In this document: positions 11,932 to 27,908 of the stretch, one piece after another
How the letters are laid out: every line of letters starts with the position of its first letter
Numbering within the stretch: the stretch's first letter is position 1
Assembly: GCA_026002855.1 (NCBI GenBank)
Contig: BPGD01000001.1
Coordinates: 310,001 to 374,000 of the forward strand
DNA: 64,000 bases
Reading direction: 5' to 3'
Origin: Bryobacteraceae bacterium
GTDB lineage: Bacteria; Acidobacteriota; Terriglobia; Bryobacterales; Bryobacteraceae
Notes under the pieces: model-generated
What the model was told of the DNA's origin: nothing
Database searches by the model: none
What the model saw: the letters and a program-made list of their open reading frames with translations, nothing else
Made by a program: the position numbers and the translations under genes

Positions 11932-12051
11932 GATTTCCTCCGGCCTCTGCTCGATTCTTGCCCCAGTTTATCCATCATCGTTTCGCCTCGCAAGGAAAAA
12001 TCGATAACGGTGCCGGGCTAGTACCGCCCCCCTGGCATCTTCCAGTACCTC

Positions 12052-14238
12052 TCACGGCGACGTGAACGCCTCCGAGGTCCCTCTCTCATTCGATACCTTC
12101 ACCGTCACGCTCTCCAGTTCCTCCAACAGCTTGTTCCGGTCGCTCGTACTGCCTGCCACCGCAAACGGCGCCGTCGCCGAAAACAGCCCGCCGTAACTCA
12201 GCGAGTTCGCGCTGCCAAACCACAGCGCCGCCGCCGCGGACACATCGAACGTGAACGTCTCCGCCTTCCCGCTGCGCCGCTTCACCGTCACTTCCAGCCT
12301 CGTCAGCGTGCGAGTCGTCGTGTAGCCCGTCACCAGCACATTGACCGCCGTGACACTCGCCTCCATCCGCGCCGCCAGCACCACCGGCGCCTGCTCCGGC
12401 ACCGTCAGCTCCAGCAGCGCCGGACTCGCCGGGGTCCGGTCGATGCCACCGTCGGCGACAAACGCCGGCGTCAGCACAATCCGCCCCGCCGCCGTCCCCG
12501 TCTGCAGCCGCACCCGCGTCGATCCATTGGCGAACACCGCCTGCGTCTGCCCCGCCGGAATCGTAAAGCTCACCACGCGTCCGCCGGTGGAAAACTGCAC
12601 CGCCGGATCCGCGCCAAAACTCGATGAATCCACCGTCATCGTCAGCGTTCCCCGCAGCGCGACCGGATACGCAGCCTGCAACGTCAGCCCCACCGCCGGC
12701 TGCGTCATCGGCGCCACCGTGCCGCTCGGCCCTTCGAAGCGGTACCCCGGCAGCTCCGGCAACGCCGCCGCCATGCCATTCAGGTTGAAGATCGCGTCCC
12801 CCACCACCAGCACATCCGTGCTCGCACCCGCCAACACCGGCGTGAAGCGGATCTGAAACTCCAGCCGGTCGTCCGGAGCCAGTTGTATGGGCAGCGGCGG
12901 CACCCCCGCCAGTTGAAACGCCTTCCCTGCCCCGCTCACCGCCAGCGTCTGGATCACCGCCGTCCGGTTGCCCTTGTTCTCCACCGAAAACACTACCGCC
13001 GTTGTCTGCCCCACCGCCGCCGCCGGCAGCATCACCTGCCCGCCCGTCTGCACCAGCGTGGTGGCGCCGGCCTTGTAAGAGTACTCCAGCAGCGCCCCCA
13101 CCACCGAAGCCGACACCACAAACGTGTCCGCGCCAATCCTCAGCCGCCCCGTCTGTCGCCCCGGCTGCACCGCCAGCAGACTCACCCCAAACCAGATCTC
13201 CGCCCCCACCTTCACCGGCGTCTGCACCAGCGGCGGATCCACCAGCCCGTACCCGTCCCCGCTGATCGCCACCCCCGCGATCACGCCCTCATCGTTGCCC
13301 TCGTTCTTCACCCGGATCCACGCCCTCTTGCGCCGGCCGAGCTCCACTTCGCCCAGGTCCACCACCCCGTCGGGGACAAACGCCACGCCGCTGTCTGCTC
13401 CGGGTTCCGGCAGCAGCGTGTAGACCCACTTCGGCCCCTGGGCCACGCCCTCCACCTTCGCCGTCACCGTCCGCCCTTCGCCCGTCATCCGCAGCGTGGC
13501 CTCGTGCACCGCCAGCTCTTTCGGTTGATACCGGATGCGGAACTGCACGCTCTGCCCCGCCGCCACCGTCAACGGCAACAGCGGCACCTGAATCAGATCC
13601 AGCTCCGCCGCCCCCTCCAGGCTCGCCGCCTCAAATTTCGCCGGCGCCGTCCCTGCGTTATAGACGATCACCGTCGCCACCGAAGCCGCATTCACCGGCG
13701 CCTTCGTGATCCGGATCACGCCGCCATCGGCCAGCGCCTGCACGTTGCCATCCGTCCCCAGCGCATAGGCGTATTTCAGCTCCGGCGCCGTGCCGCTCAG
13801 CCCCACCAGCAGCAGCCCGAAACTGCCCGGCTGCTGATTCGACCCTTCCGGCGGCAGCTCCCGCGCCGTCACCCCAAGCTGGGCCAGCGTCCGTGCGCTC
13901 GTCGAAGGCTGAAACCGCAACTGAAAAATCGCGCGTTGTCCCGGCGTCAGCACCGTCGGCGTCGGCAGCGCGGCCGCAAACTGGAAATCCGCCGACCCCG
14001 TCAGCGACGTCACCCCCAGCTCGCCCCGGCTCGTGCCCGCATACAGGATCTCCACAAAAACGTCCTTCGCCTCGCCCAGCCGGCCCGCCACCTCCACCGT
14101 CGCCCCATTCGGCACCTGCCGCGCCGTCTCCGCGTCCCGCACCGTAATCAGAAAACTCCCCTGCCCCCGCGCCACTCCCCCGGCTGCCAAAACGAGCAGC
14201 GCCCACAAGGCGCCAGTCCGCAGTGTCCCTTCCTTCAT
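12052..14238 (-). CDS. Secreted protein with repeated choice-of-anchor D / ASH-like beta domains
   Basis: A 728-residue secreted protein with signal peptide (LWALLVLAAGGVARGQG). At least four related Ig-like units are visible, each with an intermittent FxxxVxNxGxxxA pattern and RFQP, RYQP or RFTP (FQLRFQPS, FRIRYQPK, FQIRFTPV). This is the usual look of choice-of-anchor D or ASH-type domains. The last 200 residues are a different beta-rich region (VTVKRRSG, VTVKVSNERG). It is followed after 3 bases by the stop of the upstream gene, and the three genes from 15746 to 12052 form one unit. Role is unknown; an extracellular structural or glycan-interacting protein is plausible. Confidence 0.75.
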   Translation of the reverse strand: MKEGTLRTGALWALLVLAAGGVARGQGSFLITVRDAETARQVPNGATVEVAGRLGEAKDVFVEILYAGTSRGELGVTSLTGSADFQFAAALPTPTVLTPGQRAIFQLRFQPSTSARTLAQLGVTARELPPEGSNQQPGSFGLLLVGLSGTAPELKYAYALGTDGNVQALADGGVIRITKAPVNAASVATVIVYNAGTAPAKFEAASLEGAAELDLIQVPLLPLTVAAGQSVQFRIRYQPKELAVHEATLRMTGEGRTVTAKVEGVAQGPKWVYTLLPEPGADSGVAFVPDGVVDLGEVELGRRKRAWIRVKNEGNDEGVIAGVAISGDGYGLVDPPLVQTPVKVGAEIWFGVSLLAVQPGRQTGRLRIGADTFVVSASVVGALLEYSYKAGATTLVQTGGQVMLPAAAVGQTTAVVFSVENKGNRTAVIQTLAVSGAGKAFQLAGVPPLPIQLAPDDRLEFQIRFTPVLAGASTDVLVVGDAIFNLNGMAAALPELPGYRFEGPSGTVAPMTQPAVGLTLQAAYPVALRGTLTMTVDSSSFGADPAVQFSTGGRVVSFTIPAGQTQAVFANGSTRVRLQTGTAAGRIVLTPAFVADGGIDRTPASPALLELTVPEQAPVVLAARMEASVTAVNVLVTGYTTTRTLTRLEVTVKRRSGKAETFTFDVSAAAALWFGSANSLSYGGLFSATAPFAVAGSTSDRNKLLEELESVTVKVSNERGTSEAFTSP

Positions 14239-14241
14239 CGA

Positions 14242-15138
14242 CTACTCTCCCGCCGGAACAAAAAACACCGCCCACACGCCCCCGCGCCGCACCGCCACCC
14301 AGATCTCATCGCCCTCCCGCGCCCGCTGCTTCAGCAGCAGCCCGTTGCTGCCAGCCAGCGGCTCGGCCCGCTCCGGCGTTGACTCCAGCTCCACGCGCCG
14401 CGCCTCGCCGCCCCCGGCCTTCCACCACACCAGCTCCGGCTTCTCCCCGCCATAGGCCGCCACAATGTCGCCCTGCTGTACGGCCACCGCCGCCGGCGCG
14501 TCCATTCTCTCCGTCGACCCCCGCCACGCCTCGCCAGCCTCGCCGAACACCACAATTTCGCTCTCGCCCGCCAGCGCCGTCACCACCCCGGCGCACGCCG
14601 CCCGCCCGCGGCCCCTCACCCGGCCCAGCTCCTGCCAGCTCCCATCCCGCCAGACCTCCAGCGCTGTCGTCTCCCCGTCATACCAGGCCACATGCAGCGC
14701 CCCATTCTCGTTCACCGCCACATCCGCGGCCTCGCGCCCTTCGCCCAGATCCAGCCGCAGCGCCCACTCCATCGCCTCGGCGTCCCACACCCGCAGCTCG
14801 GCGGCCGTACGCACCGCCGCAAACCGCCCGCCCGCGTCCCATCGCACCGCCTCCGCCTCCACGCCCAGCTCGCGCGTCTCCGTCTCTTCCGTGCCCAGTC
14901 CTTTGATCGCCAGCCACGCGCCGCCCTGCCGCAGCAGGGCCGCCTGGCCGGTGGGGCTCACCCACGCCGCCTCCACCCCTCCGGCCACCGCCGCACCCAG
15001 ATGCGCCGCGCCCGGCACGCCCTCCACCACGCGCAGGCTCGCCGTCGGCGCATCAAACACCACCCCGCTGCGCACGCCTTCCACGCCGCCCTGGCCCCAG
15101 GCCGCCGCCACCGCCAGCATCCACGCCGCCACTCTCAT
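14242..15138 (-). CDS. Secreted protein of unknown function, beta-propeller-like
   Basis: With the start at 15138 the product is 298 residues: a short signal (MRVAAWMLAVAAAWGQG) followed by an Ala/Glu/Trp-rich region with repeated blades (for example VRWDAGGRFAAVRT, LHVAWYDGET, ELVWWKAGGG). The spacing suggests a WD40/TolB-like beta-propeller, an inference from pattern only. The start is supported by GGAGG 7 bases upstream and by a 4-base ATGA overlap with the preceding gene's stop; a longer in-frame extension has no signal peptide. Middle gene of a three-gene secreted set. Confidence 0.65.
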   Translation of the reverse strand: MRVAAWMLAVAAAWGQGGVEGVRSGVVFDAPTASLRVVEGVPGAAHLGAAVAGGVEAAWVSPTGQAALLRQGGAWLAIKGLGTEETETRELGVEAEAVRWDAGGRFAAVRTAAELRVWDAEAMEWALRLDLGEGREAADVAVNENGALHVAWYDGETTALEVWRDGSWQELGRVRGRGRAACAGVVTALAGESEIVVFGEAGEAWRGSTERMDAPAAVAVQQGDIVAAYGGEKPELVWWKAGGGEARRVELESTPERAEPLAGSNGLLLKQRAREGDEIWVAVRRGGVWAVFFVPAGE

Positions 15139-15746
15139 CGCGGACCTCCAATCACCACCGTCCCCGGCCGCAGCACCGCCCCCGAGCTCGTATCGCGCGT
15201 CGCAAAGAAATATCCAAGCCCCGCCCCAGTGCCCGCCAGCACCCCGGCCACCCACCACCGGTTCCGCCGCCAGAAACTCTTCCGCTGCGCCGTCGGCGAG
15301 CCGCCCATCGCATACTCGTCCCGGCTGTTGCGCTGCCGGATCACCGCCACCGCCGTCCGCTCACCCAGCTTCGCCGTCACCTGGATCGAAAACACGCCCT
15401 CCTGCCCGTTCGGCTTCATCTGACCCGCGCTCACCTGCCCCTTCGCGTCCGTCCGGTTCGTGTACTCGTGCCGGCCGCCCTCAAACGTCGCGCTCGGGCC
15501 CGTCTCCGGCGTCCGGAAGACGACCTCCGCCCCCGCCACCGGAAAATCATTGGCGTCGCGCACCTCCACCACCGGCGGCGTCGCCGCCCCGGTGCGGATG
15601 TTGTTCACCGCCTGCTCGCCCTGCAAAACATATATCTTCAGCCCGCCCCGCGCCGGCGCCTCCTGCGCCGCCAGCGGCGCGGCCGCGCACAGCGCCGCCA
15701 GCAGCCAGCCGCTGCCCCATCTCCCGATTTCTCTCATCATTTCCAC
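15135..15746 (-). CDS. Secreted Ig-like/bacterial surface protein with C-terminal membrane segment
   Basis: A 203-residue protein with signal peptide (GWLLAALCAAAPLAAQ), an Ig-like/Big-1 style domain (PPVVEVRDANDFPVAGAEV, then TDAKGQVSAG), and a basic-flanked hydrophobic segment RWWVAGVLAGTGAGLGYFF near residues 168-187. The pattern of a single regulatory-like beta domain before one C-terminal transmembrane helix is common in Solibacter-type genomes. First of the three-gene secreted set downstream of the exosortase-EpsI pair. No enzymatic motif was seen. Confidence 0.65.
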   Translation of the reverse strand: MEMMREIGRWGSGWLLAALCAAAPLAAQEAPARGGLKIYVLQGEQAVNNIRTGAATPPVVEVRDANDFPVAGAEVVFRTPETGPSATFEGGRHEYTNRTDAKGQVSAGQMKPNGQEGVFSIQVTAKLGERTAVAVIRQRNSRDEYAMGGSPTAQRKSFWRRNRWWVAGVLAGTGAGLGYFFATRDTSSGAVLRPGTVVIGGPR

Positions 15747-15803
15747 CTCGTTCCGGCCGTCAAATTCCCAAGTGTATCACCGCAATCAAACATTTTCGCC
15801 CGC

Positions 15804-16472
15804 TCATGTTCCCTTCAACGGCTCAAGCCGCGGGAAATGCTCAACAAGCGCCGCATACACCTCCCGCGCCAGCCCCTCGGCCGCCCGCTCGGCCTCTTCC
15901 ACCCCCGCCGCCGCCGGGACGATCACCCGCACCAGCGCCGTGTCGCTCCGCCCGTGCCGCATCGCGTCCCACACCAGCCACAGCTTCGCCTCATACTCAT
16001 TGGCCACCGTCCGCTCGCCCGTCTGATACCAGTAAACGACCGCCGCCCGCTCGTTCTCCTTCTGGATCACATACCGGTTCGCCCGCAGCCGCCCCGCCCC
16101 CGCCACCTCCGCCTCGTACGTACCCGTCCGCTCAAACACCCACCCGTGCCCCGGCAGGCAGTTGCGCGGCGTGTGCGGCGCATGGCCGGTGCGCTGGCTG
16201 CGGAAGTACGCCACAAAGACCGTCGCCCCCAGCCCCCGCCGGCTGTCGGCCAGAACCCGGTAGACGAAGTCGTCCGGGTGCAGGATCTCCGCCGTCGCGC
16301 TGTCCAGCGGCTCATCTTCCACCAGCGCCCAGCCGCCGCGCTCAAAGTTCACCAGCGCCAGCGGCAGCACCTTCGGCTCGTGCTCGTTCTGCGAAAACAC
16401 ATGGAACGCCACCGCCTGCGCGCACAACACCGCCGTCGCTACCCACACCCCCCGCCCCCGCCACCAGCTCAC
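15804..16472 (-). CDS. epsI: EpsI domain-containing protein (exosortase-associated)
   Basis: With a GTG start at 16472 the product is 222 residues: one N-terminal hydrophobic helix (VWVATAVLCAQAVAFHVF) and an EpsI domain. The hallmark segment APHTPRNCLPGHGW, near residue 110, and YWYQTGERTV match the family that accompanies or is fused to exosortases. The GTG overlaps the exosortase stop (GTGA) and has GGAGG 8 bases upstream; longer in-frame extensions are low-complexity Gly. EpsI is thought to act with exosortase in polysaccharide-linked protein sorting; the exact reaction is not known. Here exosortase and EpsI are separate but coupled genes. Confidence 0.9.
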   Translation of the reverse strand: MSWWRGRGVWVATAVLCAQAVAFHVFSQNEHEPKVLPLALVNFERGGWALVEDEPLDSATAEILHPDDFVYRVLADSRRGLGATVFVAYFRSQRTGHAPHTPRNCLPGHGWVFERTGTYEAEVAGAGRLRANRYVIQKENERAAVVYWYQTGERTVANEYEAKLWLVWDAMRHGRSDTALVRVIVPAAAGVEEAERAAEGLAREVYAALVEHFPRLEPLKGT

Positions 16473-17305
16473 TTGACCCACCTCCGCAGCAGCCGCTCCA
16501 CGCCAATCAGCATCGCCATCGCCGCCACAAACACCGCCCACCCCTCCAGCCCGTGATAAAACCCCTCGGCCAGCCGCGGATCCACCTCCCCCAGCAGCGC
16601 CGTCGCCATTACCCGCCCCGCATTGGCCAACACCGCCACCGGTACCGCCGCCGCCGCCAGCGCCCACCGCATCCACACCCTCTCATGAAACAGATATGCG
16701 TAGGCCAGCGCGAAAAACTCAAGCGTCAGCAGCGCCCGAATCCCGCTGCACGCCTCCACCACCGAAATCATCCGCCCGGCCAGCTCCAGCACGTTGCCCT
16801 CCCGCAGCACCGTCCGCCCGCTCAGCTCCAGACCCCACTCGGCCAGCCGCGTCGCCAGCAGTTGCAGCGGAAACGTGATCTGCTTGTGCAGCAGACCCGG
16901 CAGCGGCAGCGCAAAAAACAGCAGCAGCAGCGGAAACCGCAGCCGCCGCATCAGCTCCCCGCCGCCCAGGTACCACACCAGCCCCGCCACCGTCCCCACC
17001 AGCGCCAGCCTCTCCGTAAAGATCTCCGCCGCCAGCGCCCCCAAGCACGCCACCACACCGCTCGCCGCCAGCAGCCCCAGCCCCCACCCGCTCGGCGCAA
17101 TCCGCACGCCCTCCAGCTCCTCCCGCCGCTCCCACACAATGTAGCCGACAATCACCGGCACAAACCACCCGTGCGCCATGTTGTCGTCGCTCTGCCACTG
17201 GTGCACAATGTTGCCGATCACCGGCCAGTAACACACCCCCACCAGCCCCGCCAGCCACCCGGCGGCGATCCACCCCGCCCAACGCTGGCGCAAGACTCCA
17301 ATCAT
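16469..17305 (-). CDS. xrt: Exosortase/archaeosortase family transpeptidase
   Basis: A 278-residue, about 8-helix inner-membrane protein. The catalytic triad of the family is visible: Cys186 in VEACSGIR, Arg231 in NAGRVM and His251 in FYHGLEGW. Exosortases cleave the PEP-CTERM tail of secreted proteins and probably transfer them to a surface acceptor. Candidate substrates are encoded at 6509, 11203 and 62017. Its start overlaps the end of the broken GT39 gene upstream, and EpsI overlaps its stop, so it sits at the distal end of the polysaccharide locus. Confidence 0.93.
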   Translation of the reverse strand: MIGVLRQRWAGWIAAGWLAGLVGVCYWPVIGNIVHQWQSDDNMAHGWFVPVIVGYIVWERREELEGVRIAPSGWGLGLLAASGVVACLGALAAEIFTERLALVGTVAGLVWYLGGGELMRRLRFPLLLLFFALPLPGLLHKQITFPLQLLATRLAEWGLELSGRTVLREGNVLELAGRMISVVEACSGIRALLTLEFFALAYAYLFHERVWMRWALAAAAVPVAVLANAGRVMATALLGEVDPRLAEGFYHGLEGWAVFVAAMAMLIGVERLLRRWVK

Positions 17306-18557
17306 CGCGCCTCAAGCCTCACAGTCTTCGGCGTCTGCCGGCTTCCACCGGGCTCAAAGATCCACCCCGCCAGCGGCGCCAGCAGCGCCACCGCCGGGGC
17401 CATGTACCGCGCAATCGACAGCGCTACCGTTGCCATGAACCAAAACAGCCCCGTGAACCCCACCAGCAGCCACGCCGCCGCCGGCCACCCCGCCCTCGCG
17501 CAACGCCACATGCCGGCGCCAGCGACCGCCAGCCAGGCTAGGCTCACCACCAGGTTGAACCGCTCCGCCTCTTTCCTCTGAGCATCCGTCCCATACCACG
17601 CCCTCGCCGCTTTGTATAGATACGTCTCCACCACAGCAACCGGATCCTCGGCCGCCATTCGCAGCACGAACCGCACGTAAGCCCCGCTGCTGTCCAGCTC
17701 GCTGTAACGGTTCCAGGCGGCCTCGCTCATCCGCTCAACCCCCGCCGGCAGATCCAGCCGCCCCCGGAACGATTTGTGATGAAAGCTCAACCCGTCTCTC
17801 AGCGTTGGCGGCCCGCCACTTGATACCGGCACCCATTCGCCGGACTTCGCCCGCACCCATCCCACCCAGGGTAGGACCGCCAGCAGAAATCCCGCCGCCA
17901 CCGCTGCCACTCCCGCGCCACCGCGCGCTCCACCCCCCGGCCATTTTCCACCCAAGCACCCCGCCTGCCACCACCGGACTCAGAACTGCGATCGGACGCA
18001 CCAGACACGCCAGCCCGACCAGCACGCCCCCGCCCAGCAACCATCCCGCCTCGCCGCAGCGCAGCCCTCTCGCAAGGAACAGCGTCGCCCCCGTGAACAG
18101 CACCATGAAAGGCGTCTCGCTCAGCGGGATCAGCACTCCATACAGGACGAACGGATGCACCGCGAATAGACCCGCGCCTGCGGCCGCCGCCCACGGTCCC
18201 AGGCCGACCTCCCGCCCGAGTGCCCACACGAGCGTCGCCGTCGCCGTATTGCACAACACCGCAAACACCCGCCAGCACGGGAAACTTCCCCAAACCCGTC
18301 CGCTCGCCCGCCACCTCCAACCCCCACAGCAGGAGCGGGTACAGCGGCGGATACCGGTCCAGCACTTTTCCGTCCTCGCCGATAAACCCCCGACCCGCCC
18401 TCAAATTTTCCACCTGCGGAGCGTAATCTCCATTGCGGACCCGCCTCATGCTCTCCGGCGCCAACAACGCCACCCCCGCGCCAGCCAACAGAGAGACCAA
18501 GACCACAACACGCAGGACCCGGCGACTTTCCCCACACGCGATCCAAGGCACCCTCAC
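17302..18557 (-). pseudogene. GT39/ArnT-like membrane glycosyltransferase, broken by two frameshifts
   Basis: Three overlapping frames together spell one integral-membrane glycosyltransferase of about 418 codons. The N-terminal part has the catalytic-loop acidic motif NGDYAPQVENLRAG and the RYPPLYPLLL signature of dolichyl-phosphate-mannose-type transferases. Frame changes at about 18285-18300 (near a G4 run) and at the C6 run 17933-17938. The middle part contains VLIPLSETPFMVLF and the C-terminal part SIARYMAPAVALLAPLAG. The start is the GTG at 18557, directly at the edge of the 71-bp repeat. Both breaks lie at short homopolymers, so sequencing error cannot be excluded. The exosortase gene overlaps its end. 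Confidence 0.75.
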
Positions 18558-18627
18558 CTCACCTCACCCCCACCCCCGCCTCGTTCCCCGCCTTCTCCCC
18601 TGCCCCCACCTGCACCGCCGCCCACCC
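18557..18627. repeat. 71-bp direct repeat, copy 1
   Basis: These 71 bases are identical to 20141-20211. Copy 1 sits at the GTG start of the broken GT39 gene and contains a second copy of the last 23 codons plus stop of the beta-helix protein gene. Similarity stops abruptly at 18628. Confidence 0.95.
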
Positions 18628-18680
18628 AGCAGAACATGGGCTGCTCGAGCGCCTCCGGGCTGCGGACCACGCCCGTCTGA

Positions 18681-20090
18681 TCATCTTATGATCCGATCAA
18701 CATCTGGATCCTTCATCCTACCGACAAACATTTCGATCCCGAGAATTGTCTGCATCACGACAAACAGATCCACCGGGCTCCTCTGTCGTGGATCTCCGAC
18801 ATCAACCAATGCGTTCACGACAATGGTGTACAAGATGAGTCCAGCAAGGCTCGCATAAAGCACATATCGCCGGCGATCCTGCTCAACTACCAGCGGCAAT
18901 GACACATCCTTGCGCTTGAACCGGACGAACGCCCAAACACAGAAATCGTGTGCCAGTCTGCCCCCGACCATCCACAGTTGCAGGAGCCAGGCGCCAATCA
19001 CAAGGAAGTGGACGCCTGTCCAGAGAATCTGTCGAATCCCGTGCTGCCCCGCCAACCGCGTGACATACGGAAAGAGAGAACTAACAAGTGCTCTTCCAAC
19101 CGCAGCGAGGTACTCGAGTGGATTCTGAAGAATCAGCTCCATGTTCAGCCGTGCAAGCCTCTTGGCCAGCTCAACATCATTGAGACTTGTAACGGCTTTC
19201 AACATTGCCCATTGGTCCCACTGATATTGGAGGGCAGTGTGGGATTTTCCTCTCACTAGGCCACGATTTCGTCCTTCGATCAGCGCGCTGCGTAGCGGCT
19301 CCCATTTCATCTCGGCCCGTTCCACAAAGAGCGCCGTTCGATTACATAGGTTCCCCCCGAGAGCGTAAGTCAGTCCGAAATAGCCGTGGTGTTTGTAGTT
19401 CCAGGTGCATAGAGCGAGAATTGGCACTAACCCTAGGGCCGGACCGCATGCGACGCACCGAGTCCACCATTTCCCACCCTCAGTGGGACCCAGCCGCGTA
19501 AGCGTTGCAATCCCGAACAGACTAAGGACCACCGGCAGAAGTTGATAGGCCGGTCGCACCATCGCGGCAAAGGCTGCAAAAAGACCAGCAAACATTGCGA
19601 AGGTAAGTGAGCGCGTTCTCAGTGAAAACCACAATAGCGCCGTTGTTGCAACCAGGCTAAACTGAGCCACATTTTCAGTTAGTAGAATCCCAGCCGACTG
19701 CACATACAGCGGCAGCCCCATCAGCCCTGCAAATACAATCCTCAGCCGGGCGCCAAGACCCACTTCTCCCATCAGCCAGACTCCGAGCACTGTCGCCACC
19801 CCATGCAGCAATAGCCCTACCCAGACAATGGTCTTGGACGGGGGCAATCCGCAGAGCCATAGCAGAATCGGGTAACCTGGCGTCCTGAAGAACGGCCTAT
19901 CGAACTCACCGGACTGGATGCTCTCCGCCACCTCGATATATCCCCTCGAGTCACCGGCCAAAACAGGAGCGTCGTGCCAAGTCAAACCATAAAATAGAGT
20001 CGCCGCAGCCATGAGGGCGGCCGCGCCGAGAATGACCTTGTCAGCGGCACAAACCTTGACAATTCTTTTTATTCCATTCATCCACGCCAC
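18681..20090 (-). CDS. ArnT/GT39-like integral membrane glycosyltransferase
   Basis: A 469-residue protein with about 10-12 hydrophobic helices. The first periplasmic loop has DSRGYIEVAESIQSGEFDRPF and FFRTPGYPILLW, the acidic motif and RxPGYP signature of lipid-linked-sugar-dependent transferases. Its base composition is visibly lower in GC than both neighbours, and it lies between two copies of a 71-bp direct repeat, so it looks inserted between the beta-helix gene and the broken GT39 gene, which is of the same general type. Expected to transfer a sugar from a polyprenyl-phosphate donor at the periplasmic face; the substrate is unknown. Confidence 0.7.
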   Translation of the reverse strand: MAWMNGIKRIVKVCAADKVILGAAALMAAATLFYGLTWHDAPVLAGDSRGYIEVAESIQSGEFDRPFFRTPGYPILLWLCGLPPSKTIVWVGLLLHGVATVLGVWLMGEVGLGARLRIVFAGLMGLPLYVQSAGILLTENVAQFSLVATTALLWFSLRTRSLTFAMFAGLFAAFAAMVRPAYQLLPVVLSLFGIATLTRLGPTEGGKWWTRCVACGPALGLVPILALCTWNYKHHGYFGLTYALGGNLCNRTALFVERAEMKWEPLRSALIEGRNRGLVRGKSHTALQYQWDQWAMLKAVTSLNDVELAKRLARLNMELILQNPLEYLAAVGRALVSSLFPYVTRLAGQHGIRQILWTGVHFLVIGAWLLQLWMVGGRLAHDFCVWAFVRFKRKDVSLPLVVEQDRRRYVLYASLAGLILYTIVVNALVDVGDPRQRSPVDLFVVMQTILGIEMFVGRMKDPDVDRIIR

Positions 20091-20140
20091 CTCAAACAGA
20101 CTACGTTTCGGCTTTCGCGCCCGTATGAAACTCGCGCCCC

Positions 20141-20211
20141 CCTCACCTCACCCCCACCCCCGCCTCGTTCCCCGCCTTCTCCCCTGCCCCCACCTGCACC
20201 GCCGCCCACCC
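20141..20211. repeat. 71-bp direct repeat, copy 2
   Basis: Identical to 18557-18627. This copy is the genuine 3' end (stop codon at 20143-20145 and preceding codons) of the beta-helix protein gene. Confidence 0.95.
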
Positions 20212-22296
20212 CGGCGCCACCCCCGCCGGCCATCCCACCCGCACCCAGTCCACCCCCGGATACTCAGCCCGCTCCACACCCCGCACCTCCGCCGCCTGCC
20301 CCCCGACCCGCGCCCACACCCTCTCCGCCCGCCGCAGCCCCGTCGCCAACAGCCCCAGCTCCTCACCCCGCGCCCCCTCCACCTCCACCGCCTGGCACCC
20401 CCCAGGCCCGCACCGCGCCAGCGCCTCCACGGTGCCGTCCCGGTACCTCACCCACCCCAGCACTGCCCCCCGCCCGCTCCCGTCCAGTGTGAACAGCCCC
20501 GGCGCGCTCCGCTCCACCAGCACCCCGCCCGCCTCCGTGGCCGGCTCCCCCTCCCGGATCAGCCGCACCTGCGCCCACCCGGTCGCGCACTCCTCAGGCA
20601 CTTCCCACGTGATCCATTCCCTCGTGATCGCCGCCACCCGCACCCACGCCTGCCCGCCCTCGCCGTCCGTGACGTGGACTCGCACCCCGCCCAGCTCATA
20701 CCCGAACGGCGCCGCCCCGGCGACCGGCTCCCCCGAAAAATAGCCTGCCGGCAACTCCGTCCGCATCAGCGCGCCGGGCGCGCCCGCCAGCCCCTCCTCG
20801 GGTGCCGCCGCCAGCGCCGTCTTTCGCGCCGTTCCGCGCTCCAGCGTCAGCACGAAGACGCCAAATTCGGGAAACGTCGCCGGCCGCAGCGGCCCCTCCT
20901 CGCCCACCGGCGCCGCCGCCGTCCAGCCCGTCATACGCACCTTCAGCGGCCGCCCGTCCCAGATGCCCGTCTCGAATTCCTCAAAATAATTCTGCACGTT
21001 CCGCAGCGTCCACCGGTCCCCCGCCTGCGGGTTCATCACGGAAAGATCCACTTCCACCGCATCCCGCTTCGGCCAGTTATAAATCACCACATGCGCCCGG
21101 TTCGGCTCGTAAAAGTTCCGCCGCACAAACACCTTCGGCTCCGGCGGCCGTCCATCCGGATACACCGCCAGCCGGCCGTCCCGGTCGAACCCCGCCTCCT
21201 GCCATGCCGCAAACGAATAGGTCTTCGCCCCCGTCATGCCCGGCTCCAGCACGCTCACCACCGCCTGCTCCGGCCGCCCGGCGATATACGTGTTGCCCGC
21301 AAAGACAGACTCCTTCAGCGCGTGCCCCTCGGCGAGGGTCACCCCAATCAGATTCCCCCCTTGGCCCGGCCGCAGGAACGTGTTGCCTTCCGCCGTCACC
21401 CGATCCCATCCCTGCCCCGCGGAAACGAAAACCGGAAAATAATTTCCCCGCAGCGTCAGGTTCTCGTTCTGCCGGTTCGTGTACGAAAACTCCGCCGTAT
21501 TTCCATACAGCATGTTTTCCACCGCTACAATGTTTTTCAGCGGCGCCCCGCCGCCCACCAGCCACCGGCCGTTGAAATTCACGTTTCCTTCCAGCCGGAA
21601 ATTGTTCAATGCTGAATTCGCAGACCCGTACAGTTGCAGGTTGCTCCAGTACGAGTTGAAAATGATGTTTTCCCGCAGGATCTTCTCCCCCGTTGCATTC
21701 TGCGTGTAGATCCCCGGCCCGTGCCACCGGTCCGGCCCTTTCCACCCGTTGTTGAAGATGATCGTCCCGTACAGTTCCATGTCCGGGATGTTCTTGCTCT
21801 GCCCGACCGCCGTCCCCGCATCATGCACGATGCAATTGATCACCTTCGTATTCCGCCCTGCCATGGAAATGCCTCCGCCCCGGTCCTGCGGGTTGTTGTT
21901 CCCGGCGATCGTCGACGACCGGTTCGGGTCCGTATTGGTCACCTCCAGGCCCCAGTACCACGCCCACTCGCCCTCGATCGTCAGCACCGTCTTCGGCGAA
22001 AACCCGCGCCCGTCCAGCACCACCCGCTCGCCCGGATACGCCCGCAGCACCACCGGCTTGCCCGGCGCGCCCTTCAGCCGCGACACAAACGCCCCGTTGT
22101 ACACCCCTTTCCGCACCCAGACGGTATCCATCGGCGCAATCATCGGGTGCGGCTTCAGCGCTGCCTCCAGGCTCCACGGCCTCTCCTTCGACCCGTCCCC
22201 CGCCGCCGTCCCGTCTGGCGCCACATACCACTCCCGCCCCAGCGCCAGCCCGGCCAGCACCGCCAGCAGCGCCGCGCTACTCCAGAGCCTTTTCAT
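20143..22296 (-). CDS. Secreted right-handed beta-helix protein with Solibacter-type C-terminal domain
   Basis: With the start at 22296 the product is 717 residues: signal peptide (MKRLWSSAALLAVLAGLALG), then REWYVAPDGTAAGDGSKERPW, the usual opening of pectate-lyase-like beta-helix proteins, and a helical-repeat body to about residue 480 (VLDGRG, NTKVINCIVHDAG, LRGNYFPVF). The last 210 residues form an immunoglobulin-like domain resembling the TIGR03437 C-terminal domain abundant in Solibacter (SAPGLFTLDGSGRGA, LLATGLRRAE). The start is supported by GAGGAGG upstream and a 20-base overlap with the preceding GT4 gene. Probably degrades or binds an exopolysaccharide, perhaps the product of this locus. 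No catalytic triad is claimed. Confidence 0.8.
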   Translation of the reverse strand: MKRLWSSAALLAVLAGLALGREWYVAPDGTAAGDGSKERPWSLEAALKPHPMIAPMDTVWVRKGVYNGAFVSRLKGAPGKPVVLRAYPGERVVLDGRGFSPKTVLTIEGEWAWYWGLEVTNTDPNRSSTIAGNNNPQDRGGGISMAGRNTKVINCIVHDAGTAVGQSKNIPDMELYGTIIFNNGWKGPDRWHGPGIYTQNATGEKILRENIIFNSYWSNLQLYGSANSALNNFRLEGNVNFNGRWLVGGGAPLKNIVAVENMLYGNTAEFSYTNRQNENLTLRGNYFPVFVSAGQGWDRVTAEGNTFLRPGQGGNLIGVTLAEGHALKESVFAGNTYIAGRPEQAVVSVLEPGMTGAKTYSFAAWQEAGFDRDGRLAVYPDGRPPEPKVFVRRNFYEPNRAHVVIYNWPKRDAVEVDLSVMNPQAGDRWTLRNVQNYFEEFETGIWDGRPLKVRMTGWTAAAPVGEEGPLRPATFPEFGVFVLTLERGTARKTALAAAPEEGLAGAPGALMRTELPAGYFSGEPVAGAAPFGYELGGVRVHVTDGEGGQAWVRVAAITREWITWEVPEECATGWAQVRLIREGEPATEAGGVLVERSAPGLFTLDGSGRGAVLGWVRYRDGTVEALARCGPGGCQAVEVEGARGEELGLLATGLRRAERVWARVGGQAAEVRGVERAEYPGVDWVRVGWPAGVAPGWAAVQVGAGEKAGNEAGVGVR

Positions 22297-23368
22297 ACGC
22301 CTCCTCGATCCTCTCCAGCACCGCCTCCCGGCTCCACCGCGCCCGCACCCGCTCCCGCAACTTCCCGCCGGCCCGCACGCGCTCCTCCGGATCCCGCAGC
22401 AAGGCCAGCACCGCCTCCGCCAACGCCGCATCGTCGCCCACGCGCACCACCGGCCCCACCCCGTCCAGCACCGCCCGGCAGGCGCCCGCGTCCGTGCACA
22501 CCGCCGCCAGGCCCGCCTCCCCATACTCGAGCAGCGCCACCGGCAGCCCCTCGCTCGCCGAACTCAACACCCCCACATCGCACCCCGCCAGCACCGCCCC
22601 CACGTCCCGCCGCGGACCCAGAAACGTCACATTCGCCGCCAGCCCCAGCTCCTCCACCAGCCGCCGCACCTCCGCTCCATGGCCCTCCGTCCCGCACGCC
22701 CCTACCACCAGCAGGTGCGCCCTGGGCTCCTCGCGCACGATCCGCGCCATCGCCCGCAGCATCGTCGTGTAGTCTTTCTGCGGACGCACGTTCGCCACCT
22801 GCACCAGCCGGTAACCCGCCGTTCCCGGCAGCCCGCTCGCCGGCTCGCCAATCCCCCGCGTGGCAAAGTTTCCCACCACAAAGACCCGCTCAGCGGACAC
22901 CCCCAGCCGCTCCCGGCTCCATCGTGCCAGCTCCTCGTTCACCGCCAGCACCGCCGCCATCCGCCGCCGCACCATCCGGTAAGGCCAGCTCGAACGTGCG
23001 TGGATCAGCCCCCCATAGTGGTCGTGCCAAACCACGCGCACCTCCCGCCGCCCCGCGCTCGCCGCTGCCGCCGCAAACAGCGCCGTCCCGTGCGCGTGCA
23101 GAATGCGAATGCCCCGCTGCTCCACCTCCTGCCGCAGCCGCCACAGCGCCGCGGCATCGAACCGCCACCGCCGCCCCAGATTCACGAATCCGACCCGCGC
23201 GTCCAGCTCCTCCCGTAACGGCCCGCTGCGCCGCGTCGCGCACACCGCCACCACCCGGCCCCGCTCCGCCATCGCGTTCGCCAGTTGAACACACATCCGC
23301 TCCGCCCCGCCCGCCTCCAGCGTGTCCACCAGGTGCATCACCGGCGCTGTCCGCCCCGTCATGCTCAA
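22277..23368 (-). CDS. Glycosyltransferase family 4
   Basis: A 363-residue GT-B glycosyltransferase. It has the acceptor-side VMHLVDTLEAGGAERM of the GT4 group near the N-terminus and the donor-site motif VLSSASEGLPVALLEYGEAGLA (E-x7-E) near residue 272. It shares a 4-base overlap with the upstream GT4 gene and overlaps the beta-helix gene by 20 bases, so expression is coupled. Probably cytoplasmic, at the membrane, adding one residue of the repeat unit; the sugar is unknown. Confidence 0.9.
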   Translation of the reverse strand: MSMTGRTAPVMHLVDTLEAGGAERMCVQLANAMAERGRVVAVCATRRSGPLREELDARVGFVNLGRRWRFDAAALWRLRQEVEQRGIRILHAHGTALFAAAAASAGRREVRVVWHDHYGGLIHARSSWPYRMVRRRMAAVLAVNEELARWSRERLGVSAERVFVVGNFATRGIGEPASGLPGTAGYRLVQVANVRPQKDYTTMLRAMARIVREEPRAHLLVVGACGTEGHGAEVRRLVEELGLAANVTFLGPRRDVGAVLAGCDVGVLSSASEGLPVALLEYGEAGLAAVCTDAGACRAVLDGVGPVVRVGDDAALAEAVLALLRDPEERVRAGGKLRERVRARWSREAVLERIEEAYEKALE

Positions 23369-24531
23369 CCCGCCTCCACGGGCTCTTTCACCGCCACTCC
23401 CAATCGCTCCCGAAGCACGCGCACGATCTCCGCCCTCACGCCTTCAATCGAGTACTGCAAACCGAACTCCCGGCATCGCCGCTGCCTCGCCCGCCGCTCC
23501 TCCTCCGGCTCATCCATCAGCCGCGCCACCGCCCGCGCCAGCCCTTCAGGATCATTCGGACTCACGGTCTCCCCGCGCCCCTCGCCCAGCATCCAGTCCG
23601 TCAGCCCGCCCCTCGTCGCCACGCAGGGGACCCCGAACGCCATCGCCTCCACCAGCACCTTCGGCCAGCCTTCGGAAAGCGATGGCAGCACCAGTAGATC
23701 CGCCTGCTCGTACATCCCTAGCAGCCGCTCAAACCCCATCCCGCCGTGGAAGCGCACCGCCCCGTCCAGGCCCTGCCGCAGCACAAGCTCCTCCAGCCGC
23801 TGCCGCTCCGGCCCCTCGCCAATCACGTCCAGCCGCACCGCGCGGCCATGGCCCCGGAGCGCCCCCGCCGCCCGGATCGCCGCTTCCGCCCCCTTGGCCG
23901 CCGTCAGCCGCCCCACAAACAGCACCCGCCAGGGCGCCCCGGCCTCCCGGCGCCGGCAGGCGCGCCGCGCCCGCTCCAGGTCTGCCTGCCCCATCGCCGA
24001 ATTGAACATCGGCGCCACCGGCCCGCGCGCCTCCTCGGGCGGAATATAGGCGAGCACCACCCCGCGCCGCCACCACCACGACCCCAGCAGCCACCGCTGG
24101 AAAGCAAAACTCCACGGCTCGCCCCCGTACGCCCCCCACCGCCCCGCATACTTCGCCACATGCGGCCTCCCGGCCAGCGGAGCCAGAACCGCCCCGGCCA
24201 GCCCTACGTTTCCGGGACACCGCACCTGCACCACCTCCGCCTGCCGCATCTCCCGCCACAGCACCCGCATCCACACTGGCAGCGCCGCCAGCAGCCGGAG
24301 CTTCCTTCTGACTCCGGCCCCGCCTCTCTCCTCCAGCCCCGCCAGACGGACATTCCCCGCGCGAAGCGGCCGCAGGTCCCCCGGCCACGCCCCGCGCCCC
24401 TCCGGCGCCACAATCACGACTTCGTCAAACAGCGCCGCCCATTGGTCAATTTCCGCCGCATACGGCCCATACGCCCACAGCCGCCCCTCCCGCCGCCAGT
24501 GAGCCACATGAGACACGATCACAAGGCGCAC
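23365..24531 (-). CDS. Glycosyltransferase family 4
   Basis: A 388-residue GT-B enzyme. The nucleotide-sugar site is visible as RVLFVGRLTAAKGAE (about residue 210) and PSLSEGWPKVLVEAMAFG (about 290), the standard E-x7-E pattern. Its ATG overlaps the next gene's start region by 4 bases. The upstream GT4 gene stops 5 bases before its start codon. Part of a run of three GT4 genes at the distal end of the exopolysaccharide locus. Confidence 0.9.
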   Translation of the reverse strand: MRLVIVSHVAHWRREGRLWAYGPYAAEIDQWAALFDEVVIVAPEGRGAWPGDLRPLRAGNVRLAGLEERGGAGVRRKLRLLAALPVWMRVLWREMRQAEVVQVRCPGNVGLAGAVLAPLAGRPHVAKYAGRWGAYGGEPWSFAFQRWLLGSWWWRRGVVLAYIPPEEARGPVAPMFNSAMGQADLERARRACRRREAGAPWRVLFVGRLTAAKGAEAAIRAAGALRGHGRAVRLDVIGEGPERQRLEELVLRQGLDGAVRFHGGMGFERLLGMYEQADLLVLPSLSEGWPKVLVEAMAFGVPCVATRGGLTDWMLGEGRGETVSPNDPEGLARAVARLMDEPEEERRARQRRCREFGLQYSIEGVRAEIVRVLRERLGVAVKEPVEAG

Positions 24532-24535
24532 GCAC

Positions 24536-25678
24536 TCACCCTTCCGCCAGCACCCGGCGGTAAAATCCCAGATTTTTTTCCACCATCACCGCCGCGGAGA
24601 AGTCTTCTTCAATCCGCCTCCGCGCCGCCCGGCCCAGCCGGTACCGAAGATCCGGGTCGCGGAGAAGACGGACAATGGCCGATGCCAGCTCCTGAGGCTG
24701 GCGCGGATCACACAGCAGACCTTCCACTCCGTCCCGGATCACCTCCGGCCCAGGCCCCAGCCGCGACGCCACCACCGCCTTCCCCATCGCCATTCCTTCC
24801 AGCCAGGCCATCGGCATCGCTTCCATCAACGACGGATACACGCACACGGCCGCCCGCGCCAGCAGCGCCGGCATCTGATCATACGGAACCGGTCCGGCAA
24901 ACTCCACCCGGCCCCGCGTGGTCTCATCCATCAGGCGCTCCAGATGACCCCGGAACGACCCGCCGTATCTGACATCGGCCTGATCCCGCCCTGCCACCAC
25001 AAGGCGCGCCGCGGGTTGCTCGGCAAGAATCTTCGGAAATGCCTGGATCAGGAAATGAATTCCCTTTTTCTCGCAGATTGTCCCGGCAAAGACGACCAGA
25101 TTTTCCTCCTCTTGCGCTGTTTCACATGGGCAGAATCGCACCGGGTCGACGAAATTGGGAAGGATCTCAATTTGCCGGCTGCCCAGCCCTAGTAGATGCC
25201 TCGTCGTCTCCGCCACATACCGGCTCACCGCGCACACCGCGTCCGCCTGCCGGAAGGACCGCCGCTCCTGCCACCCGCGCCACAACGCCGGCTGCCTGCC
25301 CAGAGTCACCGCGAAGAAGTGGTGCCCCCCGTGCATGCGGATGACTTTCTTGACGCCATCCAACGGGCCCACCGCCGCAAAGGCGTTTTCCTGCCCCTCC
25401 ACCAGATCCAGACCATCCTGCTCACACAGCTCGCGCAGCTTCCGGGTCACCTTCCATCCGTTCCGCACAAACCGCGTGTACGGCGTCCGGGCCGCCGCCA
25501 GTCGCCACACCCGCACCCCCTGGTCGTCCTCCAGGGCGTCCCGCTCCACCGGATACACACCCACGACATCGACATGCACGCCGGCCCGCACCAGCGCCCG
25601 CCCGAGCGCCTGCGTGAACGTCCCGATCCCCCCGCCCCGGTGCGGCGGATATTCCGAACAGAGAAAGGCGATTCTCAT
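24536..25678 (-). CDS. Glycosyltransferase family 4
   Basis: With the start at 25678 the product is 380 residues, opening MRIAFLCSEYPPHRGGGIGT, the canonical GT4 acceptor-domain start with the Gly-rich loop. Donor-site residues appear in VVFAGTICEKKGIHFL and YPSLMEAMPMAWLEGMAMG (E-x7-E). A GTG 12 bases further upstream is an alternative start overlapping the preceding gene; the ATG gives the family-typical N-terminus. The preceding GT2 gene ends 4 bases upstream. Composition is intermediate between the GC-rich downstream genes and the lower-GC island beginning just upstream. Confidence 0.88.
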   Translation of the reverse strand: MRIAFLCSEYPPHRGGGIGTFTQALGRALVRAGVHVDVVGVYPVERDALEDDQGVRVWRLAAARTPYTRFVRNGWKVTRKLRELCEQDGLDLVEGQENAFAAVGPLDGVKKVIRMHGGHHFFAVTLGRQPALWRGWQERRSFRQADAVCAVSRYVAETTRHLLGLGSRQIEILPNFVDPVRFCPCETAQEEENLVVFAGTICEKKGIHFLIQAFPKILAEQPAARLVVAGRDQADVRYGGSFRGHLERLMDETTRGRVEFAGPVPYDQMPALLARAAVCVYPSLMEAMPMAWLEGMAMGKAVVASRLGPGPEVIRDGVEGLLCDPRQPQELASAIVRLLRDPDLRYRLGRAARRRIEEDFSAAVMVEKNLGFYRRVLAEG

Positions 25679-25682
25679 AGGC

Positions 25683-26678
25683 TCATTCACCGCGCAGGCG
25701 CAAAAGCCACCCCTCACAGACGCGATTGACAACGCGTCCGCAAATGCAACGCATTCGATACGGCCAGGCTCTTTCCCAGTGCCAATCCGGTGCCTTGGGG
25801 GCGGCCAGATATCGATCTGAGCGCCCTGCTTCCGGAGCCAAAAGCTCTTCGGGAACCCGGTTCCCCATGTGCCGTACGTAGGCTTTGCAGAGACTCAACC
25901 GCCACATCCCCAGCAGGTCCGCCGGCAGATCCATCCAGCAGTACTCGGAATCCTGCCCCATCGCGGCTCCGCACCGTTCCCTCGGTGCGGCATCGAACAC
26001 CTCGCGCCGGAACGTGCATTGCATGTGCGTCGCTCCGATCAGAGCAACCGCGCACCCATTCCTCACGCCCCATTGCCGCTTCCGTTGATCCGGCCGAATC
26101 AGCGCAGGTGAATTCAGGTCCCTCATGTACAGCTCCAGGTCACTGGGGCTCGCAAGAGCCTCCCGGACCAGCTTTCCTCGCACCGCCGCCCCTAGCCATG
26201 TCGCCGTCGTACACTGCCGCCGGAGGTGCGGAACGGGAAGGGCCGAAACGGCGCCTGCCATCGGGAACGCATTGAAAACGGCCACGGTCGCCTCCAGCCA
26301 GCCCGGCAGAAAAAAAATGTCGGAGTCCGTTAGCGTCACAATCGGCTCATGGGAGCCTCGCACCCCGGCCATCAGCGCATTCACTTTCCCGGCGTTCTCC
26401 CGGAATGCGATCAGCGTGTCAATGTGCCCGCTCCTCCGGTGCCGCTCAATGACCTCGAAAGTTTTTCGCGACGCCGCGTTCACCACCACCGTAATCGCCG
26501 TCTCCTGCCCGCAGGTGGCCCACAAGGAACTCAGGCAAAGATCGAGCACCTCTGCCGATTGCTCGAAATAACCAGAATCCTCGGGAACAAATACCGGCAG
26601 CACAACACGGTGCCACACGGCCGAGCCATTCAGACCCACGTGTCGGAAAGGATTACTTCCTGACCGCGGCATTTGCAC
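25683..26678 (-). CDS. Glycosyltransferase family 2 (GT-A)
   Basis: A 331-residue GT-A glycosyltransferase. The metal-binding motif is LTDSDIFFLPGW (about residues 115-126), preceded by the nucleotide-binding segment ITVVVNAAS. The middle contains GCAVALIGATHMQCTF and the putative catalytic-base region MGQDSEYCWMD. It belongs to the lower-GC island 25.7-29.6 kb. It is separated from the next gene upstream by 237 bases in which I see no credible gene. Function: transfer of one sugar onto a lipid-linked or protein acceptor; specificity unknown. Confidence 0.82.
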   Translation of the reverse strand: MQMPRSGSNPFRHVGLNGSAVWHRVVLPVFVPEDSGYFEQSAEVLDLCLSSLWATCGQETAITVVVNAASRKTFEVIERHRRSGHIDTLIAFRENAGKVNALMAGVRGSHEPIVTLTDSDIFFLPGWLEATVAVFNAFPMAGAVSALPVPHLRRQCTTATWLGAAVRGKLVREALASPSDLELYMRDLNSPALIRPDQRKRQWGVRNGCAVALIGATHMQCTFRREVFDAAPRERCGAAMGQDSEYCWMDLPADLLGMWRLSLCKAYVRHMGNRVPEELLAPEAGRSDRYLAAPKAPDWHWERAWPYRMRCICGRVVNRVCEGWLLRLRGE

Positions 26679-26915
26679 TCACGCCCTGACATCTCGCAAC
26701 TCGCATCGCATATTGATTTGTGATTCCCTCGAACAGCGAACCAGTTCGCATATATCGCACCCAGCCCGCATTTTGCACCTCTCGAGACCACACGCCTCCT
26801 GAATCAAAGGAAAGAACTCACCCATTCCACGGAGAATCACAACAACCCACCACGCCTCTACGCTATCCATGACCGACCTCTTGAAAACGATGCGCGGATT
26901 TCCGAGATAAGACTG

Positions 26916-27908
26916 TCAGCAGGAGCCGCGCACCCTCCTCGAATGCTTCCTGCCAAAATCCAGCATTCCGCACAACGACAGCGGTGCCATGAGCGTCGCC
27001 TTCAGGGCCTTTTTGGCACGCTTTACACCAGGATTCAGAAATAGCGCTCTCCACCTGTCAATTGCGCTGGAAACGTACCTGCCCTTAGCGGCGAACCAGT
27101 TTGCCCTGCTCTCAACCGATATTGCCAATACGGTCCGTCTTGCTTCCGCGTACGCGTCATAAAGACTCCGGTGTTTCGTCACAATGTATTGATAGATCTC
27201 ATAGTCATAACGGGACGCACTAAAATCAAGAGATTGACTCCATTCGTCTCGGCTCACCGGTCGACGCACGTGGTAGAGTTCCTCTTCAACCACCAGAACA
27301 GGAACCCTTCCAGCAACGACTCGAATCCACCACTCGTGATCCTCTCGCCCCATCTTGATAATAGGATGCTCGTCATACAATCCCACATCCCCAAATACAC
27401 TCTTTCTGATCAGTGATCCGGCAGGTAAAAGCGGCTGCGAAACCAATATTTGCGCCACGGTTGGCTGGCTGCATTTCCTCCGCCCGTCACGCCCACCAAA
27501 AAACCGGCCCTGTGGGCACACGATAGGAGCACTGGTCCCCTGCATATAGGTGAGCAATGTCTGGAGACACTCTGCTACAATCCAATCGTCCTCATCCACA
27601 CAGATCACCTTGTCAGCCCGGGCTTCACGAATCCCCGTATTCCTCGCTGCTGCCAGCCCGCGGTTCTCCCGGTGCTCCACGAGCCGGAACCGCGGATCGT
27701 TCATCGACGCCACTGCCGCCCGGATCTCCTCCACCCGCGGCGACCCATCACTCACCACAATGCACTCCCAGTCCGTATGAAGGTCTGCTTCTGAATCGAT
27801 CCCTAGACACTCCGGCAGATACTCCGGCTTGTTGTAAGAAGGCACAATCACACTCACAATCGGCGTGGGCCCATACATGCACGTCGCCTTATCTCCTGAT
27901 TCATTCAT
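26916..27908 (-). CDS. Glycosyltransferase family 2 (GT-A)
   Basis: With the start at 27908 the product is 330 residues. The N-terminal PIVSVIVPSYNKPEYLPECL and the metal-binding VICVDEDDWIV (about residues 90-100) identify a GT2 enzyme. WECIVVSDGSPR lies between them, and a later GREDHEWWIRV carries the putative base (ED). The start is chosen for a GGGAGGGG ribosome-binding site. It lies in the low-GC island. A basic hydrophobic tail follows the catalytic domain. Confidence 0.88.
   Translation of the reverse strand: MNESGDKATCMYGPTPIVSVIVPSYNKPEYLPECLGIDSEADLHTDWECIVVSDGSPRVEEIRAAVASMNDPRFRLVEHRENRGLAAARNTGIREARADKVICVDEDDWIVAECLQTLLTYMQGTSAPIVCPQGRFFGGRDGRRKCSQPTVAQILVSQPLLPAGSLIRKSVFGDVGLYDEHPIIKMGREDHEWWIRVVAGRVPVLVVEEELYHVRRPVSRDEWSQSLDFSASRYDYEIYQYIVTKHRSLYDAYAEARRTVLAISVESRANWFAAKGRYVSSAIDRWRALFLNPGVKRAKKALKATLMAPLSLCGMLDFGRKHSRRVRGSC

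Follow-up and report, generated by a model that had tools for sequence, protein, structure and literature searches.

A perfectly duplicated gene tail flanks a compositionally foreign gene at an exosortase locus of a Bryobacteraceae bacterium

We looked at a 64-kb stretch of the genome of a Bryobacteraceae bacterium (contig BPGD01000001.1, positions 310,001 to 374,000; hereafter the window), in which two identical copies of the 3' end of a gene encoding a beta-helix protein enclose a single gene of lower GC content, here called GT-A, at a short distance from an exosortase gene. The original prediction, made from the sequence of the window, had read this arrangement as an insertion flanked by a target duplication, and our results support it: the repeat is perfect, the composition of GT-A is foreign, the same slot is variable in relatives, being empty in another genus and holding displaced tails in a sister species, and two further insertions with duplicated gene tails were observed in the genus. 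The insertion scar is real and of a kind known from Helicobacter, and the repeated use of gene tails is what is new here.

A low-GC gene between two copies of a gene tail

The two copies, at 18557-18627 and 20141-20211, are identical at 71 of 71 positions and lie in direct orientation. They form the sole exact direct repeat of at least 25 bp spaced by up to 10 kb in the window, in a scan with 25-bp exact seeds that left aside k-mers with over 20 occurrences. Across the genome, a single contig of 4,437,915 bp, the 71 bp are matched in full length at these two places only; the next match by score is an exact one of 18 bp, and the others among the 21 matches listed cover 14-40 bp at 75-100% identity. 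A chance origin of the repeat is therefore excluded. Copy 2 (20141..20211, minus strand) is, as had been proposed, the true 3' end of the beta-helix protein gene (20143..22296, minus strand), with the TGA stop codon ending at 20143 and followed by 2 bp. Since the encoded protein ends in a TIGR03437 Solibacter C-terminal domain (residues 524-716 of 717; 43.8 bits, above the curated cut-off of 29.05), the 71-bp repeat corresponds to the end of that domain. Copy 1 (18557..18627, minus strand) is the displaced copy of this tail and runs directly into a broken PMT_2-type gene (17302..18557, minus strand), the first G of whose GTG start is at the same time the last base of the copy. The segment between the copies (18628..20140, no strand assigned) measures 1513 bp, and one tail copy together with this GT-A segment makes a unit of 1584 bp. 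Only two open reading frames (ORFs) of at least 100 aa lie wholly between the copies, GT-A itself (18681..20090, minus strand, 469 aa) and a 103-aa frame on the opposite strand. No inverted repeats of at least 20 bp were found in 12000-27000, a scan that shorter ends would escape. In the window, 71-nt stretches with a G4Hunter magnitude of at least 1.8 form just two clusters, 18549-18633 and 20120-20257, which are located on or beside the repeat copies.

GT-A has a GC content of 0.55 and a third-position GC content (GC3) of 0.59, to be compared with a GC of 0.66 for the window; the genes for the beta-helix protein, the exosortase and the next glycosyltransferase reach a GC3 of 0.86-0.89. By these values GT-A is compositionally foreign, which agrees with the earlier description of a low-GC gene between the copies. 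Its relatives are sparse, being detected in 2 of 61 genomes (E 0.001) and in 6 of 396 genomes of the phylum, with its own genome counted in both figures. The function of the protein is less clear than had been thought. It had been called GT39-like, and this could not be upheld, as Pfam reported no family for it even at E values up to 5; the NCBIfam model NF047440 matched with 19.8 bits (E 2.8e-4), far under its cut-off of 200. Because of this missing Pfam match and weak NCBIfam match, the label of putative glycosyltransferase is a guess taken from the context. GT-A probably is a multi-helix membrane protein, judging from its single-sequence structure model, which is all helical, with a mean pLDDT of 41.8 that makes it too poor for a fold search. 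Transposase and recombinase families gave no match to it. That the inserted gene and the broken one should be of the same type received weak support, the two aligning with 33% identity over 98 aa (E 0.19).

The absence of any difference in 71 bp sets the divergence of the two copies at no more than 4.1% (95% upper bound), as against a difference of 25% between the window and a sister species in an alignment of 3995 columns that surrounds the exosortase gene. On this sequence comparison, the 71-bp duplication would therefore be much younger than the split of the two species, unless conversion is at work.

The slot in relatives and further tail duplications

For the comparison, the genome of the window is named G000, that of the sister species of the same genus just mentioned G004, and that of a member of another genus of the family G109. 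Among the four other species of the genus, G004 alone gave matches to the whole beta-helix protein together with high-identity matches to the exosortase, while the remaining three possess an exosortase paralogue only, at 41-44%. The exosortase gene (16469..17305, minus strand; PF09721, 236 bits) marks the right border of the variable slot. In G109, a relative of the beta-helix protein (46% over residues 10-713) is followed by 36 bp and then by the exosortase, so that the slot is empty. A relative of the broken PMT_2-type gene is present in the same G109 cluster, about 9.7 kb further on; it is intact, encodes 435 aa and aligns across the broken gene of the window in three different frames, which confirms that this neighbour is broken. 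With the intact relative located elsewhere in the cluster, the proposal that GT-A replaced a failing transferase is left unsupported. Among 28 further loci with a beta-helix gene or the C-terminal domain (L028-L055, with flanks of up to 1.5 kb), only one adjoins this exosortase, and it is the G109 locus.

In G004, the slot between the beta-helix and exosortase genes extends over about 12 kb (locus L027). The order is a methyltransferase, a decayed piece of the beta-helix tail, a gene piece, an IS5-family element and the C-terminal part of a GT-A homologue, and then another tail piece, a membrane gene called GT-B (partly duplicated), the second methyltransferase and a frameshifted exosortase. 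Only the C-terminal part of the GT-A homologue is present (55% over 298 aa). The gene piece after the upstream tail (L027:4647-5126) is not significantly similar to GT-A (38% over 29 aa, E 0.77), and the three frame pieces of the broken gene of the window found no match in the G004 locus at E 0.1. Because the slot is empty in G109 and differently filled in G004, the gene content of these loci indicates that genes come and go at the junction of the beta-helix and exosortase genes. Provided that the older state is the one kept by G109, the content of the slot in the window would be derived relative to the empty form. The G004 slot (L027:4452-14333) also contains a 1.3-kb repeat at 99.9%, tandem duplications of 1.19 kb and 198 bp and inverted IS5-family copies at 95%, and the adjoining exosortase gene is frameshifted. 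Six pieces related to the IS5-family transposase of G004 occur in the genome of the window, none of the six inside the window.

Displaced beta-helix tails were thus found in G004 as well. The tail before GT-B is identical to that of the window at 47 of 51 bp (75 bits with the 71-bp query) and occurs twice, as part of the 1.3-kb repeat. The piece upstream of the GT-A homologue aligned at 73% over 176 columns when a 170-bp query was used (94 bits). The best background score, obtained from 40 blocks (800 kb) of the two genomes, was 34.6 bits. A beta-helix tail piece follows shortly past the end of GT-A in both species, at 53 bp in the window and at 45 bp in G004. Examined by eye, the G004 tail pieces are followed by a short G-rich GGGGGCGCG-like flank, which in the window is found after copy 2 and not after copy 1. 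The claim that copy 1 stands at the native place is plausible but uncertain, since the flank of the G004 tails follows the other copy. As to the G004 beta-helix protein itself, only 6 of its last 21 residues (L027:3341-3406) agree with the window, and it is the displaced piece before GT-B that is window-like. It looks as if the G004 gene had been given its new end by a later event.

We then consider the survey for further tail duplications, which covered the window and 800 kb of G000 (864 kb) and 800 kb and the 32.5-kb locus of G004 (832 kb), cut into 83 blocks, and in which exact direct repeats of at least 30 bp, more than 300 bp apart and spaced by up to 8 kb, were counted; pairs across block borders are missed by this procedure. 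Any such pair was present in 16 of the 83 blocks, and exactly one pair in five. These isolated pairs are the 71 bp of the window and pairs of 33 bp in L072, 180 bp in L085, 56 bp in L091 and 38 bp in L096, the blocks with several pairs (L076, L088, L089, L124, L127, L128, L133, L137, L147, L026 and L027) being left outside this count. The pairs in the window, L072 and L085, with spacings of 1.6-2.6 kb, are all gene 3' ends, their distances to the stop-codon end being 2, 1 and 7 bp, respectively. For a random interval of these lengths, the chance that one end comes to lie 7 bp or less from an ORF stop is about 9%, and three of five isolated pairs at gene tails correspond to a binomial probability of about 0.7%, to be read with the fact that the criterion was shaped after the cases had been seen. 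The 56-bp and 38-bp pairs were rejected as tail insertions, as they are not at gene ends; L091 shows in addition three shorter pairs at a 25-bp seed.

In L072 (L072:3952-6587, that is G000:C1:2213952-2216587), the 33-bp tail of an NlpC/P60-type gene is duplicated around 2.6 kb, the second copy being just ahead of the end of the convergent nadB. The insert contains a gene for a PEP-CTERM protein and an IS256-type transposase gene. In all four sister species the NlpC/P60 gene is directly beside nadB, which gives the empty site, and the PEP-CTERM and transposase genes were not found in the flanks fetched from these species. In L085 (L085:14430-16573, in G004), a perfect 180-bp repeat is formed by the tail of a small gene adjoining an hpnH-like gene, and the segment between the copies is of lower GC and holds one 383-aa gene. 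The full copy of the small gene has an altered last codon, and it is in the displaced copy that the Asp-stop ending of G000, G001 and G002 is preserved. In both L072 and L085, mismatched homology seems by eye to run on past the exact tract, which fits a recombination between diverged copies.

Origin of the duplication

We favour, with a probability of about 0.55, the reading that the tail was duplicated by a single homologous crossover with incoming DNA carrying this tail and GT-A. The incoming DNA would have held a homologous beta-helix tail followed by GT-A, and the crossover at the shared tail would have joined it to the chromosome. It may have been a small circle or else a linear molecule, with homology at one end and an illegitimate join at the other; the linear form would give the same product if that join fell upstream of the crossover. 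The product would then read intact beta-helix gene, GT-A, displaced 71-bp tail and old neighbour. As the length of the duplication would be that of the homology carried, the variable lengths would be explained, and the position of the three tails at gene ends would follow in part from the fact that only insertions leaving the upstream gene whole were likely to be kept. For the G-rich flank after copy 2, we prefer to think that the incoming piece may have brought its own beta-helix tail and flank along with GT-A. It is the crossover route, the donor and the order of arrival that we infer here. A ComEC-type gene is present in the genome but also in 10 of 14 control genomes, and it therefore says little on competence.

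A number of results weigh against this crossover. The empty slot of G109 is a comparison across genera, and the slot there contains no counterpart of the broken gene either. The gene order of G004 may not be the original one, owing to IS rearrangement. With the 71-bp query alone, the upstream tail of G004 reached 35.6 bits, level with the best background score, and the 170-bp query also matched an unrelated place in L027 at 39 bits. Two of the isolated pairs, L091 and L096 (spacing 0.4-0.8 kb), are away from gene ends, and the split at a spacing of 1.5 kb that separates them from the other three was chosen after the data had been seen. In L072 an IS may have had a part, given the IS256-type transposase gene in the insert; in L085, the other four species showed neither the inserted gene nor its far neighbour next to the host gene, so that this locus offers no secure empty site. 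Finally, no donor, circle or close one-copy strain was seen, and scans of genome contigs for a donor, with GT-A and with a two-sequence beta-helix alignment, gave no relatives, although own and very near genomes may be excluded from such scans.

The events could also have had the opposite polarity, the beta-helix gene and GT-A being older and the PMT_2-type gene having come later with a 71-bp tail from a donor. The flank described above would agree with this, as it is found after copy 2, beside GT-A, and not after copy 1. However, the PMT_2-type gene has an ordinary GC of 0.68 and a relative in the G109 cluster, so that it looks older, and it is also the decayed one; moreover, the G004 piece at L027:4647-5126 is unlike GT-A, so the common order of a tail followed by GT-A is not borne out. 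We take this polarity to be unlikely and prefer GT-A as the last arrival because it is compositionally foreign. An old duplication common to both species and kept identical in the window through gene conversion would account for the tail piece that follows GT-A at a similar distance in window and G004, but the next gene differs, with the broken gene unmatched in L027, and much would be asked of a conversion confined to a 71-bp tract and sharply bounded by non-homologous sequence at either side, which makes this origin decidedly improbable. Still less credit can be given to a template switch, at replication or break repair, that would have captured foreign DNA at a G-quadruplex-prone tail. The G4Hunter clusters of the window lie at or next to the repeat copies, and the G004 tail before GT-B scores above every position of a 400-kb sample of that genome; yet at 0.61 the 180-bp L085 repeat does not count as G4-prone, four other such clusters (in two blocks) exist in 800 kb of G000 without known tail duplications, and the idea was formed post hoc on one site.

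A transposon or integrase insertion with an unusual target duplication would be in line with the IS elements of the G004 slot and with the IS256-type gene in L072. Integrative elements that target gene 3' ends possess an integrase and a fixed attachment core and leave the host 3' end duplicated at both borders; the host 3' end is likewise duplicated at both borders here, but no integrase was seen. GT-A has no transposase or recombinase match, long inverted repeats were not found and the lengths of the duplications vary (33, 71 and 180 bp), which leaves such an insertion very improbable. The original prediction, in leaning towards recombination rather than a transposon, was thus right in direction, with the scan limited to inverted repeats of at least 20 bp. 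Its other option, a replication slip, is disfavoured because a slip cannot supply a foreign, low-GC gene that is without a match in 59 of 61 genomes (E 0.001). That the two copies should be an assembly artefact is hardly to be expected: they are known here from assembled sequence alone, but the assembly is a single contig and G004 has a GT-A homologue in this slot too.

Insertion with long target duplication was described in Helicobacter pylori (Nobusato, Uchiyama, Ohashi, Kobayashi 2000, Gene 259:99, as cited in PMC1643837, PMC3031569 and PMC3154945). As far as these citing passages describe it, the likeness is close, a gene being placed between long direct repeats of the target of variable length and recognised by comparing related genomes. 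The H. pylori cases are frequently, not obligatorily, restriction-modification genes, whereas here a membrane-protein-like gene is found at an exosortase locus and, unlike in H. pylori, the duplicated piece is a gene 3' tail in the three cases examined. What is added beyond Helicobacter is the occurrence outside that group, the exosortase locus, the recurring gene tails and possibly their stacking. The second precedent, from an E. coli study, is a search for homology-facilitated illegitimate recombination in which 56 of 60 Lac- clones gave a PCR product diagnostic of a partial lacZ duplication, measuring 109-950 bp in 14 sequenced clones; the authors read this as a single crossover with a circular molecule shorn of part of its homology, true homology-facilitated illegitimate recombination generally leading to deletion (PMC3240628). 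There too, part of a gene is left duplicated after the integration of incoming DNA that shares homology with the end of that gene, although that case was a laboratory plasmid conjugation (PMC3240628), while the present one is natural, with duplications of 33-180 bp. In one open-licence literature collection we found no paper joining target duplication, Acidobacteri, glycosyltransferase and direct repeat, none uniting illegitimate recombination, natural transformation, direct repeat, duplication and gene acquisition, and none naming TIGR03437, which is not a proof of absence.

The recurring gene-tail scars in the genus hint at a way in which these bacteria take up single genes with no transposon in sight. 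By what route lone accessory genes reach a chromosome when no mobile element can be seen is a general open question, and with readable tail scars, three in the roughly 1.7 Mb surveyed, it would become possible to measure the donors, the rates and the lengths of homology involved. The tails might even be homing sites for transposase-free cassettes of the genus, each made of a tail and one accessory gene, which would leave through their tail copies and re-enter wherever the same gene is present. We regard this as speculative and unlikely; if true, one cassette after another would accumulate behind the beta-helix gene, and the surface polysaccharide locus would become more diverse.

Neighbouring genes and other repeats

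Next to the exosortase gene lies a gene for an EpsI-type, DUF3485 exosortase-associated protein (15804..16676, minus strand, by profile match), and the two together therefore indicate an exosortase/polysaccharide-type locus, so that a gene gained in this slot may change the cell surface. The broken PMT_2-type gene is read in three frames, one of which scored 33.7 bits against PMT_2 (gathering cut-off 26.1), the other two pieces being without a match. The name beta-helix derives from the original prediction and from a sub-threshold match of the G109 relative to Pfam Beta_helix (19.6 vs 25.9 bits); the protein of the window had no Pfam match at E 0.001.

Elsewhere in the genome of the window, two distant C-rich, G-quadruplex-prone places, L062:1691-1933 and L076:19618-19860, have near-identical starts and possibly belong to a dispersed repeat family. 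In L076 and L127, moreover, exact repeat pairs of some 40 bp number in the hundreds per block, and these are perhaps repeat arrays or tandem-repeat genes.

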